Assembly: GCA_029779375.1 (NCBI GenBank)
Contig: JAKPAR010000254.1
Coordinates: 1 to 8,598 of the forward strand
Direction of reading: 5' to 3'
DNA length: 8,598 nucleotides
Source of the DNA: Bacillota bacterium
GTDB lineage: Bacteria > Bacillota > Clostridia > Tissierellales > Sporanaerobacteraceae
The number at the start of each line of letters is the position of its first letter. The first letter of the stretch is position 1. Positions 2,702 through 8,582 of the stretch are shown piece after piece. The position numbers and the translations under genes are program-made. The notes under the pieces are model-generated. The model worked only from the letters and a program-made list of their open reading frames with translations, ran no database searches and had not been told where the DNA came from.

Positions 2702-3967
2702 TTATTTATTTACGTTTCTATTTAGCAATGCATTTAGCAACACACCTACTATAGCTGCAAAACTCAAACCTGAAATTTTTACACTTTCATTTATAGGTAT
2801 TCCTATAACTATTCCAAATTTCTTTTCTATTATACTACTGCTAAGACCTAAAACTATTATCGAAGACATAACTATTATATTCTTCCAATTGAACTTTACC
2901 TTATTATTTTTTATAGTCTGTACTCCTACTAAAGATATCATACTAAAAAGCATTATACTTATTCCGCCCATTACAGGTACTGGTATTGTATTTAAAAATG
3001 ATCCCACTTTTGAAACAAACCCCAGTGCTATAGCAAATACTGCTGCTAATCTTAAAGTAGATGGATCATAGTTTTTAGTTAGTGCAAGAACCCCTGTGTT
3101 TTCTCCATAAGTTGTATTTGCAGGTCCTCCTACAAGTGAAGCAGCCATAGTTGCAAGACCATCTCCAAGTAATGTCCTATTTAGTCCCGGATCTTCTATA
3201 AAATTCTTTCCTACTACTTGACCATTTGTAGTGATATCTCCTATATGTTCCATGAATACCGCTAGTACTACTGGTGCTATTATAGCGATAGCTCCTATAT
3301 CAAATTTAGGTGAATTGAAAGGTGGCAATGAAAACACTGGACTTTCCTTTACTAGATTTAAGTCTACTAAACCAAGTTTCAAGGATACCAAGTATCCAAC
3401 TATTACTCCAGTTAAAATAGCCAATTGCTTAAAAAATCCTTTTCCTTTAAAATTTACAAGTACTGCGACTCCCAATGTAATTCCTGCTACTAAAAAATTG
3501 TTGCTAGCCATATTTATTGCCGTTGGAACAAGATTCATTCCTATAACTATAATCATTGGTCCTACTACTTGTGAAGGAAGATATTTTTCTATTTTTTCTA
3601 CACCTATTTTCTTAATCAAGAAAGATATTATTACATATATAAGCCCTGCTACAAGCATTCCACCTTGTGCATAAGATAAATCTCCATTGTACATTTCTTT
3701 TACAGTTAAAATCACTGGTATAAAAGCAAAGGATGAACCTAAAAATACTGGTACTTTTCCCTTTGTACATAGGTGGAATATAAGTGTTCCCATTCCTGCT
3801 GAAAAAAGAGCTATGGATGGATTTAGACCTGTAAGCATTGGAACTAATACCGTAGCTCCAAACATAGCTATTAAATGTTGAAGTGCCAACACCACTTTTC
3901 TTGATGAACTTTTAAGACTTATTTCTTCTTTTGTATACACATTCTCTTTAATCACATTTTCAGTCAT
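2702..3967 (-). CDS. uraA: Uracil permease (NCS2 family, UraA type)
   Basis: A 421-residue polytopic membrane protein of the nucleobase-cation symporter-2 family, importing uracil with protons. The N-terminal stretch after about residue 24 reads LALQHLIAMFGATVLVP, very close to E. coli UraA, followed by FLGSSFAFIP. The substrate site is intact: Glu240 in VFMEHIGD and Glu289 in NTTYGENTGV correspond to the uracil-binding glutamates of E. coli UraA (241 and 290). About 14 hydrophobic segments are visible, matching the family fold, and the length is usual. The ATG follows AGGAGG (3980-3975) with 7 U bases between. The gene stands alone between its own promoter, with a PyrR-type leader, and a strong terminator. 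Regulation by PyrR, which responds to UMP, supports uracil over xanthine or another base as substrate. Confidence 0.95.
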   Translation of the reverse strand: MTENVIKENVYTKEEISLKSSSRKVVLALQHLIAMFGATVLVPMLTGLNPSIALFSAGMGTLIFHLCTKGKVPVFLGSSFAFIPVILTVKEMYNGDLSYAQGGMLVAGLIYVIISFLIKKIGVEKIEKYLPSQVVGPMIIVIGMNLVPTAINMASNNFLVAGITLGVAVLVNFKGKGFFKQLAILTGVIVGYLVSLKLGLVDLNLVKESPVFSLPPFNSPKFDIGAIAIIAPVVLAVFMEHIGDITTNGQVVGKNFIEDPGLNRTLLGDGLATMAASLVGGPANTTYGENTGVLALTKNYDPSTLRLAAVFAIALGFVSKVGSFLNTIPVPVMGGISIMLFSMISLVGVQTIKNNKVKFNWKNIIVMSSIIVLGLSSSIIEKKFGIVIGIPINESVKISGLSFAAIVGVLLNALLNRNVNK

Positions 3968-3968
3968 A

Positions 3969-4014
3969 AAAAAACCTCCTATTTTTAGTTTTAAGGAGAT
4001 TTTCTAATCTCCTT
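3969..4014 (-). promoter_or_regulatory. Mutually exclusive hairpins at the uraA ribosome binding site
   Basis: Two alternative structures share the segment at 4005-3993. Hairpin 1: AAGGAGATT (4014-4006) pairs with AATCTCCTT (4001-3993), 9 perfect pairs around a 4-nt loop. It leaves the Shine-Dalgarno free. Hairpin 2: AGAAAATCTCCT (4005-3994) pairs with AGGAGGTTTTTT (3980-3969), 12 pairs including two G-U, with a 13-nt loop. It buries the Shine-Dalgarno sequence and reaches almost to the ATG. The 5' arm of hairpin 1 overlaps the closing stem of the second PyrR loop, so PyrR binding should disfavour hairpin 1. Neither hairpin is followed by a U-run, so this is not a terminator. The pairing is read directly; the translational switch is inference. 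Confidence 0.6.
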
Positions 4015-4043
4015 TTTCAGCCTCACAGGACTGAGTTAAAAGG
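4011..4043 (-). promoter_or_regulatory. PyrR binding loop 2 (proximal to uraA)
   Basis: The RNA core AGUCCUGUGAGGCU (4032-4019) matches the PyrR consensus ARUCCNGNGAGGYU. CAGUC pairs with GGCUG around the loop CUGUGA, and a lower stem CCUUUU/AAAAGG (4043-4038 with 4016-4011) encloses a purine-rich bulge. The lower stem shares bases with the hairpin next to the uraA ribosome binding site. PyrR, an RNA-binding protein of Firmicutes, binds such loops when UMP is high. Confidence 0.88.
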
Positions 4044-4064
4044 TTCACAATATTTGATTGCAAT

Positions 4065-4095
4065 AAAAAACTTCTTGCAGCTAGCAAGAAGTTTT
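4065..4095 (-). terminator. PyrR-controlled attenuator in the uraA leader
   Basis: The arm AAAACTTCTTGC (4095-4084) pairs perfectly with GCAAGAAGTTTT (4078-4067) around a 5-nt loop, and the RNA ends in six U bases (4070-4065). An alternative antiterminator is visible. CUGGCAAGA, at the 3' side of PyrR loop 1 (4127-4119), pairs with UCUUGCUAG (4089-4081) over 9 pairs, and GUUUU at 4104-4100 pairs with AAAAC at 4095-4091. Forming these removes the terminator's 5' arm. PyrR-UMP holding loop 1 would prevent the antiterminator and stop transcription. Confidence 0.9.
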
Positions 4096-4113
4096 GTTTA
4101 AAACCCGTTCTAT

Positions 4114-4155
4114 CACAATCTTGCCAGTCTCACAGGACTGAGTTAAAGATTTGTG
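4114..4155 (-). promoter_or_regulatory. PyrR binding loop 1 (promoter-proximal)
   Basis: The RNA core AGUCCUGUGAGACU (4139-4126) fits the PyrR consensus except A for G at one paired position, which turns a G-U into an A-U pair. The upper stem CAGUC/GACUG is perfect around the loop CUGUGA. The lower stem is CACAAAUCUU (4155-4146) against AAGAUUGUG (4122-4114), with one bulged A. A 19-base exact repeat is shared with loop 2 (4129-4147 and 4022-4040). Its 3' strand is also the antiterminator strand for the following terminator. Confidence 0.9.
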
Positions 4156-4173
4156 TTCCTTTTTTTCTTTTCA

Positions 4174-4202
4174 ATTATAGCACCATATTCCCTTTATTGC
4201 AA
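4174..4202 (-). promoter_or_regulatory. Sigma-A type promoter of uraA
   Basis: On the minus strand, TTGCAA (4202-4197), a 17-base spacer and TATAAT (4179-4174) form a near-consensus housekeeping promoter. The start would be near 4167, giving a leader of about 200 nt that holds both PyrR loops. The -35 begins only 9 bases after the stop codon of the radical-SAM gene. The -35 lies inside the perfect palindrome TATTGCAATA (4195-4204). Confidence 0.85.
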
Positions 4203-4210
4203 TATTTATT

Positions 4211-5080
4211 TTACAATCTCCTAAATATTTCTTCCTCCTCAAGACCTTCCATTTTAAGTCCTTCTTCTATTTGTGCCAATATAAGATTTTTATCTTTATT
4301 TAATGTTCCTCCTAATGCTACATAATTGGAAGCGTGATTGCTTCTAAAAATACAATTATCCACATTTAACCTTTTTACAAATTCTCTAGTTTCCAAAAGA
4401 ACTTCTTTAGGAGTCAGCAATTTAAATTTTCCATTCAAAACATCATCATAAAATTCTGTCCCTTCTTCTACTAAAAGAGTTAATAACCCTATATAATCAG
4501 GATTCATTTCATTTACCACTCTAGCAGATTCCACTACATGTTCCATAGAATGTTCTTTCCCTCCAAGACCAGATATGAGAGTTATGGAAAGTAAAATATC
4601 TGCTTCTTTTATTTTTCTACCCGCAGCAATCATTTCAAAAGAATTGACTCCCTTTTTTATTTTTTCAAGAATTAAATCACTCCCAGATTCAACTCCAAGA
4701 TAAACAATTCCAAGACCTAATTTTCGTAGTTCTATAAGCTCTTTTGTACTCTTTCCAAGTATAGATTTAGGTGAACCATAAATTCCTACTCTCTTACATT
4801 CAGGGAAAATTGTTTTTATTGCTTCTAATATCTTTAACAATTCTTCCGTCTTTATAATCAATGCATCTCCATCAGCTAAAAATATTCTCTCTACTTTACT
4901 ATACTCTTGTCTTCCCAAAATTAAATCTTCTATTATGTCTTCAGTTTTTCTTATTCTAAAATTTTTTTCTTTATACATAGAACAAAAAGTACATCTATTT
5001 TGAGAACATCCTATAGTAGCCTGAACTATAAGGCTATATGCTTCACTAGGAGGTCTATAAACAGTTCCCTCATATCTCAT
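4211..5080 (-). CDS. Radical-SAM protein of unknown substrate
   Basis: A 289-residue protein with an iron-sulfur cluster motif near the N-terminus: GCSQNRCTFC with Cys25, Cys30 and Cys33, spacing Cx4Cx2C rather than the standard Cx3Cx2C. Further radical-SAM core features follow in order: FLADGDAL (strand 2 region), GVESGSD (the SAM-contacting GxxS region) and ISGLGG. A conserved-looking C-terminal RSNHASNYVALGGTL closes the core. No extra cobalamin, TRAM or SPASM domain is seen, so it is the core barrel only. The ATG at 5080 is preferred: GAGGUG lies 5 nt upstream and the nrdJ stop 10 bases before. A longer form from GTG 5113 would overlap nrdJ by 23 bases and has no ribosome binding site. 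It is probably co-transcribed with nrdJ. The opening MRYEGTVYRPPSEA is a pattern I recall from an uncharacterised family; the reaction is unknown. Confidence 0.85.
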   Translation of the reverse strand: MRYEGTVYRPPSEAYSLIVQATIGCSQNRCTFCSMYKEKNFRIRKTEDIIEDLILGRQEYSKVERIFLADGDALIIKTEELLKILEAIKTIFPECKRVGIYGSPKSILGKSTKELIELRKLGLGIVYLGVESGSDLILEKIKKGVNSFEMIAAGRKIKEADILLSITLISGLGGKEHSMEHVVESARVVNEMNPDYIGLLTLLVEEGTEFYDDVLNGKFKLLTPKEVLLETREFVKRLNVDNCIFRSNHASNYVALGGTLNKDKNLILAQIEEGLKMEGLEEEEIFRRL

Positions 5081-5090
5081 ATCTCCACCT

Positions 5091-8000
5091 CTAATTACAT
5101 TTAGAATATCCACAATTCATGCATATCGTACAACCACCTTCATGCCCTATTGGACTTCCACATTCTGGACATAAAGCTGAACTTTTTTCTTCTTTTGTTC
5201 TAGAAAACTCATCTATAATATCTTCATCTATAGGATCTTCCACTTGTACACAAGTATCCATTGCTTTTTCCAATGCTTTCCCTATAGCATCTGGACAAGA
5301 TAGTACTTTTATATCTTTGTTTGTGGCTTTTTGCCTTAATGTAGAATGGCATCTAATTCCCTTTAGTTGTTCTATTATTTCCTTTACATCCATACCTGAT
5401 CTTAAAGCTATAGATATAAGTCTACTAGTAGCTTCACTTTGACTTGGACAACCTCCTGCTCTCCCTAAATTTGTAAATACCTCACATATCCCATTTTCAT
5501 CATAATTGACAGTTATATATAAATTTCCACATCCTATCTTTACCTTTTCAGTTATACCCCTTGTTATTTCTGGCCTCATCCTTGGTTTCACAAGTGGAAG
5601 ATTTCCTACAACAACTTCTCTCTTCTTTTCTTTCTTTCCAGTACTTAGTACTTGATTTTCTCTACTTCCATCTCTGTAAATAGTCACACCTTTACAACCC
5701 AATTTATAAGCTAGCATATATACTTCTTCTACATCCTCTTTTGTTGCTTCATTTTTAAAGTTTACAGTTTTAGAAACAGCATTATCTACATGATTTTGAA
5801 AAGCTGCTTGCATCTTTATATGCCAAAATGGTATTATATCATGAGCTGTAACAAATACCTTCTTTACATCTTCGGGTATTTCTTCGATATGTTGAATAGT
5901 CCCTTCCCTAGCTATTCTCTCCATCAATTCTTGTGAATAAAACCCTCTTTCTTTAGCAATCCTTTCGAAATATGGATGTACCTCCAGCAACTTGTCATTA
6001 TCCATTACATTTCTAATGAAGGATATGGCGAATAGTGGTTCTACCCCACTGCTTGCTCCCGCTATAATACTTATAGTTCCCGTTGGAGCAATGGTAGTTG
6101 TAGTTGCATTCCTCATCTTCATTCCAGTTTCATAATAAGTACTCATTTCATATGCTGGGAATACTCCTCTTTCTTCTGCCAATCTCATAGATTCTTCTTT
6201 AGATATTCTATCAATGAAGCCCATCAATTTATCCGCCAAATTCACAGCCTTATCTGAATTGTAAGGAATACCTAAATAAAACAATAAATCTGCAAATCCC
6301 ATAACTCCAAGACCTATTTTTCTCGTCTTTTTAGTCATCTCATCTATTTCTTTTAGAGGATATTTATTCATATCTATGACATTATCTAAAAAATGTACTG
6401 AATTTCTTACAGTAGCTTCTAATTTATCGTAGTCAATTTTATATCCATTTGAATCTTCTACTACCATCTTAGCTAAATTTATTGAACCTAAATTGCAAGA
6501 TTCAAAGGGCAAAAGTGGTTGTTCCCCGCATTGGTGAACCACTATTCCATTACAAATCATAGAATGTGTGGTAGGCTCTGTCAAATCATATACTGTTTCT
6601 TTTCCAATATAGTCAGTAGAAATAACCATATCATAGTTTTTTTCTTTATAAAAAGACTTAAATTCTATGCTCTCAAGAGCTCTTTGTTTTTTCTCACTCA
6701 TAAACCCTATAGTTTTTGCAAATCTATCCCGTGATTTTCCGAATATAGCCAATTCATACAACACACCATCACAATCATACTGCCTCTCCTCACCACTTAC
6801 AGTAGTATATTTAAATACTCCTTCTCTTGGCTCTCTGGAGCGATCTAATATCGTACTCTTTATTCCCAAATTGATCAATAATTTTTGCACACCTTTTAAT
6901 AATTCTTTACTTTTAGATGTTAGAACCACCCAAGAACTATTTGCTTTAGGATTGTCTCTAACACTTCCATCCGCTGTAAATAAGGCTTGCAAAAATCCTA
7001 CAACTACCTCATATGGAGCATTATATATACTTTGAGGCACTTCTTTTTCCTCTGATTTAACAGGTTTTACCCCTAAATCTTTGAAAAATTCTACAAAGTA
7101 TTTACTATGATACGAAAGATGATAAACACCATTTTCTCTTTCAACTTCTTTGATATCTTTACCATACATATTATTTACAATTGGTTTTAAATAATTTAAA
7201 ATCTCTGTATCATCTTCTGAGAAAACAAACCCTACTCTCGGATTTTTAGGATCATCCCTTAACCAACCATCACCGATAATCCAACCTAAAGTTTGCCCAA
7301 GTTCCTTAGACCACTCATTAGGCAGATTCAACTCGTACATTCTTCCATCGCCACCAATATAAGTATTTTCCGTTCTAAAAGGAAGATTGTACTCTTTTGA
7401 AAAAACTCCTTCTCCAGATTGTATTAAAACTTCATCACCATTCTTTATTTCACTAAGTTCTTTCCAACCTTCTGGTGTTAAAAATCTATGATCATAAGTA
7501 GCTTTTATTTCATAACCAGATTTTGTAGTTAACTTGAATACATCCTTTTCTCCATTATTATATACCTTAGTTATTGCATTAAAGGAAACACCATCACATT
7601 CCATACATGGAATAGTCTTAGCAACACTTCCACCATTTACTACTTCGTATTGAGTCATAGGCACTCTATCGTCAGTAGCTATAACAAGTCCACCATTCTC
7701 ATATCTTTTATATATTTCATCAATCCTCATCAAACCATATTCCGTTGAGACATAAGTATCTCCAGTAACACATGGGTTAGTGCTTTCTATTTCTCCCAAT
7801 TTTCTTACAGGGCTCGTTTTATTTATTCTATCTAAAAATACTATTCCAGGTTCTCCTGTACTCCAAGCCATTTCTACAATATGTTTAAATACCTCTTTAG
7901 CATTTAAACTTCCTACAGGCTTTTTAGTATGAGGATCTATCAAATCATAATCTTCTCCATTTTGAACAGCTTCCATAAACTTTTCAGTAATTCCAACACT

Positions 8001-8582
8001 TATATTGAAATTAGTTATCTCACTAGTATCTCTTTTGCACTCGATAAATTCCATTATATCAGGATGATCTATTCTCAATATTCCCATATTTGCTCCTCTA
8101 CGAGTGCCCCCTTGTTTTACAGCTTCAGTAGCTGAATTGAATACCTTCATAAAACTAACAGGGCCAGAAGCAACTCCCCCAGTTGATTTAACTGAAGAAC
8201 CTTTTTGTCTAAGTCTTGAAAAACTAAATCCAGTACCACCGCCGCTTTTATGTATTAAAGCTGCATTTTTTATAGCATCAAAAATTCCCTCCATAGAATC
8301 TTCTACTGGCAATACAAAGCAAGCTGACAATTGCCCAAGTTCTTTTCCTGCATTCATAAGAGTAGGTGAATTTGGTATAAATTCCAAATTAGTCATCATA
8401 GTGTAAAACTTTATAGCAGTTTCTTTTACATTTGCATCTTTATCATATATTTTGTCTGCTTCAGCAATAAAATTTGCTACTCTTTCAAACATTTCCTCAG
8501 GAGTCTCTAAAATTTTTCCGGTATCATCTTTCGTCAAGTATCTTCTTTCAAGGACTTTTCTCGCATTATCTGTAAGCTCCAC
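5091..8582 (-). CDS. nrdJ: Adenosylcobalamin-dependent (class II) ribonucleotide reductase with in-frame intein
   Basis: A 1163-residue precursor; removing the intein (residues 271-684) leaves 749, the usual size for clostridial NrdJ. The mature enzyme reduces ribonucleotides to deoxyribonucleotides using a thiyl radical made from coenzyme B12, without oxygen. Landmarks: Cys88 (LSACFVLP) and Cys696 ([10 protein letters not shown]) as the redox pair; Asn269, Cys685 and Glu687 as the split NPCGE active site, with Cys685 the thiyl residue; APTGTIS at 832-838 for substrate phosphate. A TSCPD domain lies at about 1010-1110 (with GGCPSQSE and LSCPDAIG). A C-terminal tail has six cysteines (1138, 1141, 1151, 1154, 1157, 1162), as in other long NrdJ proteins, likely for re-reduction or metal binding. 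The start is GTG at 8582, with GGAGGTG (8594-8588) 5 nt upstream and a typical NrdJ N-terminus. The promoter lies outside the window. Confidence 0.95.
6531..7772 (-). mobile_element. Intein with LAGLIDADG homing endonuclease, inside nrdJ
   Basis: A 414-residue protein-splicing element in frame in nrdJ, residues 271-684 of the precursor. It starts with Cys271 ([10 protein letters not shown], block A). Block B follows: TYDH with Thr362 and His365, then [11 protein letters not shown]. Two endonuclease motifs come next: LGWIIGDGW (432-440, Asp438) and [10 protein letters not shown] (530-539, Asp538). Block F is VYDLTEP at 664-670, and the end is NGIVVHQ. The next residue is Cys685, a proper +1 nucleophile. 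The penultimate His683 is present, but the last residue is Gln684 where most inteins have Asn; the atypical Gln class is known and has been reported in ribonucleotide reductase inteins. Both catalytic aspartates are kept and the frame is intact, so splicing and homing both look possible. The insertion separates Asn-Pro from Cys-Gly-Glu of the active site. Confidence 0.95.

Follow-up and report, generated by a model that had tools for sequence, protein, structure and literature searches.

PyrR is the textbook attenuation protein of pyrimidine genes, and its pyr attenuator in Bacillus subtilis (Rfam RF00515) is among the closest described relatives of the element analysed here. In 2007, Fields and Switzer reportedly described PyrR-dependent translational repression in Mycobacterium smegmatis, at a site overlapping the ribosome binding region. 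We analysed the leader of uraA, a uracil permease gene on the minus strand of a stretch of 8,598 nucleotides (nt; the window) from a Bacillota bacterium of the family Sporanaerobacteraceae (contig JAKPAR010000254.1). Two PyrR-type loops and three overlapping pairings are present in this leader, and sequence and computation show them to be conserved. On computational and comparative grounds we read the leader as a probable PyrR switch with two layers: loop 1 would act through a terminator, and loop 2 is predicted to control access of the ribosome through two mutually exclusive hairpins. We give this reading a probability of about 0.77. A first-pass annotation had already suggested such a translational switch at loop 2; its observation is confirmed and its interpretation supported by folding and comparison, with two corrections and with the ON state at equilibrium as the weak point.

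The window leader shares with the B. subtilis attenuator the effector protein, a near-identical binding loop and an anti-antiterminator logic, and differs from it in that loop 2 feeds a Shine-Dalgarno sequestor instead of a canonical terminator, and in that two loops of different kind are combined. In M. smegmatis PyrR is said likewise to act on the translation of a pyrimidine gene, whereas loop 2 lies 30 nt away from the Shine-Dalgarno sequence and would act via the two competing hairpins; a closer match to the mycobacterial system than the window is found in the 17 relatives with direct occlusion presented below. In the TRAP system a single binding region serves both layers, whereas the window leader, with an unrelated protein and pathway, gives each layer its own loop. 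According to passages of one account, attenuation and Shine-Dalgarno sequestration occur in one leader in TRAP-trpE of B. subtilis, and pausing allows time for binding (PMC12288461). Riboswitch platforms of translation attenuation, dual or direct type, as set out in an extract of PMC2258182, likewise use an antisequestor/sequestor pair or place the ribosome binding site within the sensor; the sensor in the window is a protein-binding loop and not a metabolite aptamer. PyrR sites adjoining other cis-regulatory RNAs in one leader are reported in part of another paper (PMC4342826), and tandem elements as such are therefore not new. In the open-licence papers searched we found neither a Shine-Dalgarno sequestor under PyrR control nor a clostridial leader combining attenuator and translational PyrR sites, which does not establish their absence from print. 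The sequestor variant of PyrR control appears to be new, and is well supported by comparison of leader sequences.

Three overlapping pairings at the start of uraA

The features between loop 2 and the start codon of uraA, all on the minus strand, are as follows.

4011..4043 (-): PyrR-type loop 2, closing stem CCUUUU 4043-4038 / AAAAGG 4016-4011, apical stem 4034-4029/4022-4017 (script and fold)
3993..4014 (-): antisequestor hairpin H1, 4014-4006 (AAGGAGAUU) with 4001-3993 (AAUCUCCUU), loop 4005-4002, 9 Watson-Crick pairs (script)
3969..4005 (-): sequestor helix H2, 4005-3994 with 3980-3969, 12 pairs (10 Watson-Crick, 2 G-U), 13-nt loop (script)
3975..3980 (-): Shine-Dalgarno AGGAGG of uraA, 7-nt spacer to ATG (sequence)
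3968..3974 (-): seven consecutive U separating the Shine-Dalgarno from the start codon (sequence)

The pairings given in the first-pass annotation, namely the overlap of loop 2 with H1, the 9-pair H1 and the 12-base H2, were all recovered by script. Positions 4014-4011 are common to H1 and the closing stem of loop 2, and eight bases are common to the 3' arm of H1 and the 5' arm of H2 (4005-3994). H1 alone folds at -10.6 kcal/mol and H2 alone at -11.5 kcal/mol; H2 spans AGGAGG (3980-3975), and its 12-pair version also takes in six of the seven U, just behind the G+C core. Sensor stem, antisequestor and sequestor are mutually exclusive in the window, and the sequestor covers the Shine-Dalgarno, which is separated from the end of loop 2 by 30 nt (4011 to 3980). 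The pyrimidine gene immediately 3' of loop 2 is uraA. The loop 2 core departs from the PyrR consensus at two positions, which we take to be free positions of that consensus. The core, AGUCCUGUGAGGCU, agrees at 12 of 14 positions with the binding-loop consensus ARUCCAGAGAGGYU as given in a passage of PMC7430163, and UMP-dependent (uridine monophosphate) binding of PyrR at loop 2 is predicted. CCUUUU (4043-4038), the 5' side of the stem that closes loop 2, is also complementary to the Shine-Dalgarno (3980-3975). Weak Rfam matches to STnc280 and TCL6_1 were taken as chance.

When pyrimidines are plentiful, PyrR-UMP would clamp the stem closing loop 2 (4043-4038/4016-4011) and so remove 4014-4011 from H1; the freed 3' arm of H1 (4001-3994) could then pair with the Shine-Dalgarno as H2, and translation of uraA would be off. 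When pyrimidines are scarce, H1 would form once transcribed, ahead of Shine-Dalgarno synthesis, and a ribosome could load as the Shine-Dalgarno emerges, the ON state being presumably kinetic and not one of equilibrium. Transcripts escaping the loop 1 attenuator would meet a second lock at loop 2.

Transcripts from 4167 were folded with their ends moved progressively downstream and with loop 2 either enforced or unconstrained. Unconstrained, H1 had a probability of 0.94-0.96 for ends 3993-3975 and still of 0.51-0.84 for ends from 3969 on. With loop 2 enforced and ends from 3969 on, the H2 core stood at 0.99, H1 at 0.00 and the unpaired Shine-Dalgarno at 0.00. Loop 2 raised the cost of opening the Shine-Dalgarno by +2.90 kcal/mol, a value reached by 0/40 linker shuffles. 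Constrained folding thus reproduces the logic put forward in the first-pass annotation, in which bound PyrR breaks H1 and buries the Shine-Dalgarno and free RNA forms H1. The accompanying caveat, that H1 could persist in its inner part when PyrR is bound, holds in silico for short transcripts (0.76-0.81 at ends 3993-3985, 0.32 at 3975) and does not extend to those ending from 3969 on (0.00).

Several results in the window weigh against the two-layer reading. The unconstrained Shine-Dalgarno is unpaired at 0.76 for end 3975 and at only 0.01-0.37 from 3969 on, because it finds other partners; in a short free transcript one of these is the freed CCUUUU region of loop 2, which pairs with the Shine-Dalgarno at 0.93. 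The Rfam match of loop 2 (RF00515, 4047-3966; 47.5 bits, E 2.8e-4), like that of loop 1, falls short of the gathering score of 54, which is passed by at least one site in 4/6 genomes of the family and not in this genome. Since equilibrium folding yields no clean ON state, a purely thermodynamic switch was rejected and we argue for a kinetic one. In the folding model loop 2 decides between H1 and H2, and an open Shine-Dalgarno depends on the timing of ribosome arrival.

Leaders of related uraA genes

The comparison covers 83 leaders: the best 80 of 199 UraA-confirmed loci from a scan of genome contigs, the window, and two loci from the window's own family (L099 and L104), with G001-G003 taken as the same records as L012, L011 and L013 and counted once. 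PyrR cores were sought within 450 bases upstream of the start codon, allowing up to 4 substitutions. The last core lies 61-81 nt from the start codon in 53 leaders, 30-36 nt in 17 and 148 nt in 1; within these limits none was found in 12/83. The 53 switch leaders were selected by loop distance alone. Outside them stands L015 (loop at -148), which has the same loop and H1 but places the Shine-Dalgarno ~80 bases further on. No PyrR loop was found within the 450 bases at any of the four uraA loci of Clostridioides difficile (L081, L083, L084 and L086), although the switch is present in their sister group (Paraclostridium and others). L025 is recorded as Lutibacter sp. B2, a Bacteroidota name; its UraA falls among clostridial ones and its leader is of clostridial type, and the record is probably misnamed.

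We scored as a triple overlap any leader in which loop and H1 share at least 2 nt, H1 and H2 share at least 3 nt, each helix is at -3 kcal/mol or better and H2 lies on the Shine-Dalgarno. Orthologous leaders lacking complementarity to the Shine-Dalgarno had been named beforehand as what would refute the switch, and the outcome was favourable, with a triple overlap in 53/53 switch leaders against 158/5300 linker shuffles. The proposed logic is further supported by the cost of opening the Shine-Dalgarno, which an enforced loop raises in 51/53 leaders, the window included (mean +3.10 kcal/mol), against a mean effect of -0.05 kcal/mol (standard deviation 0.52) in linker shuffles; the effect is at least 1 kcal/mol in 48/53 leaders and in 38/2120 shuffles. 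H2 is more probable with the loop than without it in 53/53, exceeding 0.5 with the loop in 47, and H1 exceeds 0.5 before the Shine-Dalgarno is transcribed in 52/53 free and 11/53 bound leaders.

The leader set also holds points on the other side. The 53 leaders share kinship and are not 53 independent cases. The effect is opposite in L028 (-1.22) and L043 (-0.25) and weak in L020 (0.16), L047 (0.05) and L021 (0.76), and H2 stays at or below 0.5 despite the enforced loop in 6/53. At equilibrium the free full-length leaders (n=53) have a mean unpaired Shine-Dalgarno of 0.19, H2 exceeds 0.5 even without PyrR in 20/53, and the 5' region of the loop pairs with the Shine-Dalgarno at >0.3 in the free fold of 17/53.

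Covariation is modest overall, and part of its signal stems from the known PyrR loop. At the base before GGAG and its partner we counted A/U in 37, G/C in 9, G/U in 3 and A/C in 2 of 51 scored leaders, L011 and L012 having no GGAG (Fisher 3.5e-6, kinship ignored); this table uses energy-picked helices, which biases it toward complementary bases. Many rows of the MAFFT alignment A1 have the 5' arm of H1 out of register by one base, so that H1 pairs were counted per locus and the alignment count was restricted to loop and H2. This OFF structure gave 93.2% paired cells, against 89.8% when shuffled and 50-68% with slid partners; its covariation score was 0.321, compared with 0.248 when shuffled. 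Pairs changed on both sides (9, with a shuffled mean of 7.9 and 172/500 shuffles reaching 9) and pair types (30 against 27.7, reached in 66/500) are not outstanding. H2 alone has 87.8% paired cells, with 3/7 pairs changed on both sides. Of the compensatory changes looked for across leaders, the base before GGAG and its partner tend to vary together, and two of the five alignment measures do not exceed the shuffles.

These data bear on the possibility that PyrR does not switch the folds at the start codon at all: loop 2 would then be no more than an extra PyrR site that aids loop 1, and the Shine-Dalgarno pairing would be incidental to purine- and pyrimidine-rich sequence. Some complementarity is indeed automatic, given that CCUUUU and AAAAGG resemble an anti-Shine-Dalgarno and a Shine-Dalgarno. 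The linker shuffles, however, preserve both loop and Shine-Dalgarno and lose the effect, in 25/53 switch leaders the search of 450 bases upstream of the start codon found no loop 1, and the Shine-Dalgarno and its complement tend to change together; we regard this alternative as very improbable.

In the 17 leaders whose loop lies closest to the start codon, the PyrR loop itself holds 1-5 of the 5 bases of the Shine-Dalgarno core, and we refer to them as the direct-occlusion type. In three of them (L033, L053, L061) a single base of the 5-nt core is within the loop, so that "direct" there means partly abutting, and the Caloramator-like direct leaders L046, L049 and L051 have a second GGAGG 3' of the loop. 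The opening-energy measure is meaningless for this type, the Shine-Dalgarno being part of the enforced stem, and its negative values (17/17) were not used. The existence of these leaders, 17/83 with the core partly or wholly in the loop, lends some colour to the idea that PyrR on loop 2 of the window simply blocks the ribosome beside the Shine-Dalgarno, H1 and H2 being of little account. The window is not of this mycobacterial type, in which the Shine-Dalgarno lies inside or abuts the loop: its gap is 30 nt, and over the 53 switch leaders 26-46 nt separate the end of the loop from the 5-nt core. A direct block would also leave the conserved H1 and H2 unexplained, and we hold it to be more improbable still. 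On the UraA tree the direct type needs 6 state changes, at least 3 of them forced by well supported branches, which argues that a site acting on translation is retained even as its form varies.

The upstream part of the window leader, in which the other layer of the proposed switch would lie, contains the following features.

4174..4202 (-): promoter-like site TTGCAA-17-TATAAT, with TG ahead of the second hexamer (consensus scan, 10/12 matches)
4117..4151 (-): PyrR-type loop 1, closing AAUCUU 4151-4146 / AAGAUU 4122-4117, core CAGUCCUGUGAGACUG 4140-4125 (Rfam match and sequence reading)
4081..4127 (-): possible antiterminator of loop 1, CUGGCAAGA 4127-4119 with UCUUGCUAG 4089-4081, 9 pairs (script and sequence reading)
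4065..4095 (-): terminator-type hairpin of loop 1, 4095-4084 / 4078-4067, 12 pairs, loop of 5, U-run to 4065 (-15.3 kcal/mol)
2702..3967 (-): uraA, NCS2-family uracil permease, 421 amino acids (protein model matches)

We infer a transcription start near 4167; the region 3900-4300 holds 2 promoter-like sites against 1.2 expected, which is weak evidence. Loop 1 matches RF00515 over 4153-4062 with 52.5 bits (E 3.3e-5). The hairpin behind it, with its 12 pairs, loop of 5, -15.3 kcal/mol and U-run, qualifies as an attenuator terminator, and the 3' closing strand of the loop can pair over 9 bases with the 5' arm of the terminator. A simple terminator scan of 3900-4300 listed none, neither this hairpin nor H2. 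Loop 1, the terminator and the overlapping possible antiterminator likely represent the usual attenuator plan. Loop 1 is accompanied by a terminator in 27 of the 53 switch leaders and by no detected terminator in 1, and the remaining 25 carry a single loop; the corresponding numbers for the 17 direct leaders are 9, 1 and 7 (for L016 and L030, ~400 bases of upstream sequence entered these counts). A possible antiterminator of at least 8 pairs was found in 23/28 tandem leaders by the same crude script, which is anchored on the last CUUCUU-like word and gave short runs for L014, L024, L028, L031 and L075. The first-pass annotation had considered both kinds of control in one leader unusual; instead, with 27/53 switch and 9/17 direct leaders, an attenuator plus a translation-level site is a frequent plan in this clade.

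Termination or translation at H2

A further correction concerns the end of the leader. The absence of a U-run behind either hairpin had been taken to mean that loop 2 is not a second attenuator, yet seven U (3974-3968) follow GGAGG directly and give H2 a terminator-like outline. The same run is similar to the T-rich pause motif of NusG described in PMC12288461. H2 might be mainly a second intrinsic terminator, with burial of the Shine-Dalgarno as a side effect; loop 2 would then be another attenuator of the classical kind, or a dual platform. U-runs of 6-8 before AUG in 34/53 leaders fit this idea, as does the Rfam PyrR model, which includes a terminator and aligns H2 with the terminator stem, non-standard pairs being present. 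Dual-platform riboswitches with the ribosome binding site in the 3' side of the terminator are described in the extract of PMC2258182.

Against termination as the main role of H2, the helix is kept in the 11/53 leaders whose longest U-run before AUG is below 4, and its loops span 5-27 nt. In a terminator test with a loop of at most 10, 16/53 H2 regions passed compared with 27/28 loop 1 segments of tandem switch leaders, and H2 of the window failed owing to its 13-nt loop, though U7 is present. In pyrB versions of the leader a U-run of at least 5 occurs in 2/7 (seven in L164, five in L170). The U7 spacer is no peculiarity of uraA either: the genome has 178 GGAGG-N7-ATG sites, and of the first 100 in the list 5 have this spacer, four besides the window's own. 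In the 17 direct-occlusion relatives, finally, the loop sits on the Shine-Dalgarno itself and leaves no space for an intervening H2, which points to translation. We consider it unlikely that H2 is chiefly a terminator. Given the U-run after the Shine-Dalgarno, partial termination at H2 may still contribute in the window. Elsewhere in the genome another GGAGGTTTTTTTATG start (L112:430-490, G000:C65) has a 12-base perfect upstream complement (ACCTCCATTATA ... TATAATGGAGGT), and Shine-Dalgarno hairpins with a trailing U7 therefore exist outside PyrR control.

Other genes with the same wiring, and the genomic setting

To find further leaders, a covariance model was built from the 53 switch leaders, H2 included. 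It matched in 81/199 sampled genomes of the order, with 49 hits of at least 57 bits in 42 genomes (hand count), and in 63/391 sampled genomes of the class, with 16 hits of at least 56.6 bits including the window; one class-level hit, L196, reads as an attenuator. Of the 49 order-level hits 43 were read: 35 precede uraA, 6 precede pyrB and the other 2 stand ahead of a short open reading frame (ORF). The 52 stretches fetched comprise 46 scorable ones, of which 4 repeat earlier leaders and 42 are new. Triple overlap and a positive effect were found in 42/42 new leaders against 75/2100 shuffles; because the search model contains H2, this weighs as consistency and not as an independent test of the two-layer reading. 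The unscored stretches L173, L174 and L176-L179 were outside the distance or start-codon range of the script, and by eye are mostly attenuators or directly occluding loops.

Loop 2-type switches were seen in the pyrB leaders L164, L165, L166, L167, L168, L170, L175 and L192. The products of L164 and L170 match aspartate carbamoyltransferase models over their first 70 residues, below whole-protein cut-offs as expected of fragments; four other pyrB proteins and a lower-scoring seventh (L175) were named by similarity of their first residues, and L192 was likewise named by likeness. By eye, the seven pyrB leaders from L164 to L175 all have a further PyrR-type loop upstream, followed by a hairpin resembling a terminator. 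In five (L164-L167, L170) the Shine-Dalgarno is GGGGGA and is matched by UCUCCC, which fits a sequestor constraint.

Thermus is known to have a leader peptide under PyrR control. The order in L180 and L181 is pyrR, a loop with H1 and H2, an ORF of 21 or 26 codons, and pyrC; The pyrC of L180 and the PyrR of L181 were identified by NCBIfam models, and the remaining two genes were named by likeness. The ORF of L180 (400-600) ends within the 5' arm of what by eye is a terminator-like hairpin (AAAGGATAA...TTATCC plus T7), and its translation could therefore prevent termination. L181 (450-690) has no comparably clear terminator-like hairpin after the short ORF.

It is tempting to extend this picture to Clostridia at large, with PyrR as a general translational repressor besides its role in attenuation, and the sensor with its two hairpins as a portable cassette that stands behind an attenuator as a double lock, precedes uraA or pyrB, converts repeatedly to and from direct occlusion, and gates a pyrC leader ORF that decides a downstream terminator; we place even odds on this extension. 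A conserved translation layer would mean that PyrR regulation in many clostridial lineages has been read from half its machinery. If true, two kinds of platform are lumped together in the PyrR model of Rfam (loop plus terminator), and a single protein controls both RNA polymerase and the ribosome within one leader, much like TRAP in the case of tryptophan. The repeated switching of leaders between sequestor and direct occlusion would offer natural experiments on why both layers persist.

The source assembly consists of 402 contigs and is 88.8% complete. UraA of the window scores 321.5 bits against TIGR00801, exceeding the cut-off of 291.8; its top score is to PRK10720 uracil permease, at 332.8 bits and short of that model's cut-off of 477. 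PyrR is encoded in the genome (C106:1372-1902; NF003549, 253.5 bits, cut-off 138). A third PyrR-type site in the genome lies ahead of pyrB, the aspartate carbamoyltransferase gene (L002:1400-1680, G000:C91), where a terminator-like hairpin CCTTCC...GGAAGG-T7, seen by eye, marks an ordinary attenuator. Elsewhere in the window (5091-8582, minus strand), a ribonucleotide reductase gene (PF02867, PF00317, TSCPD) is split by a LAGLIDADG-domain intein (PF14890, PF14528).
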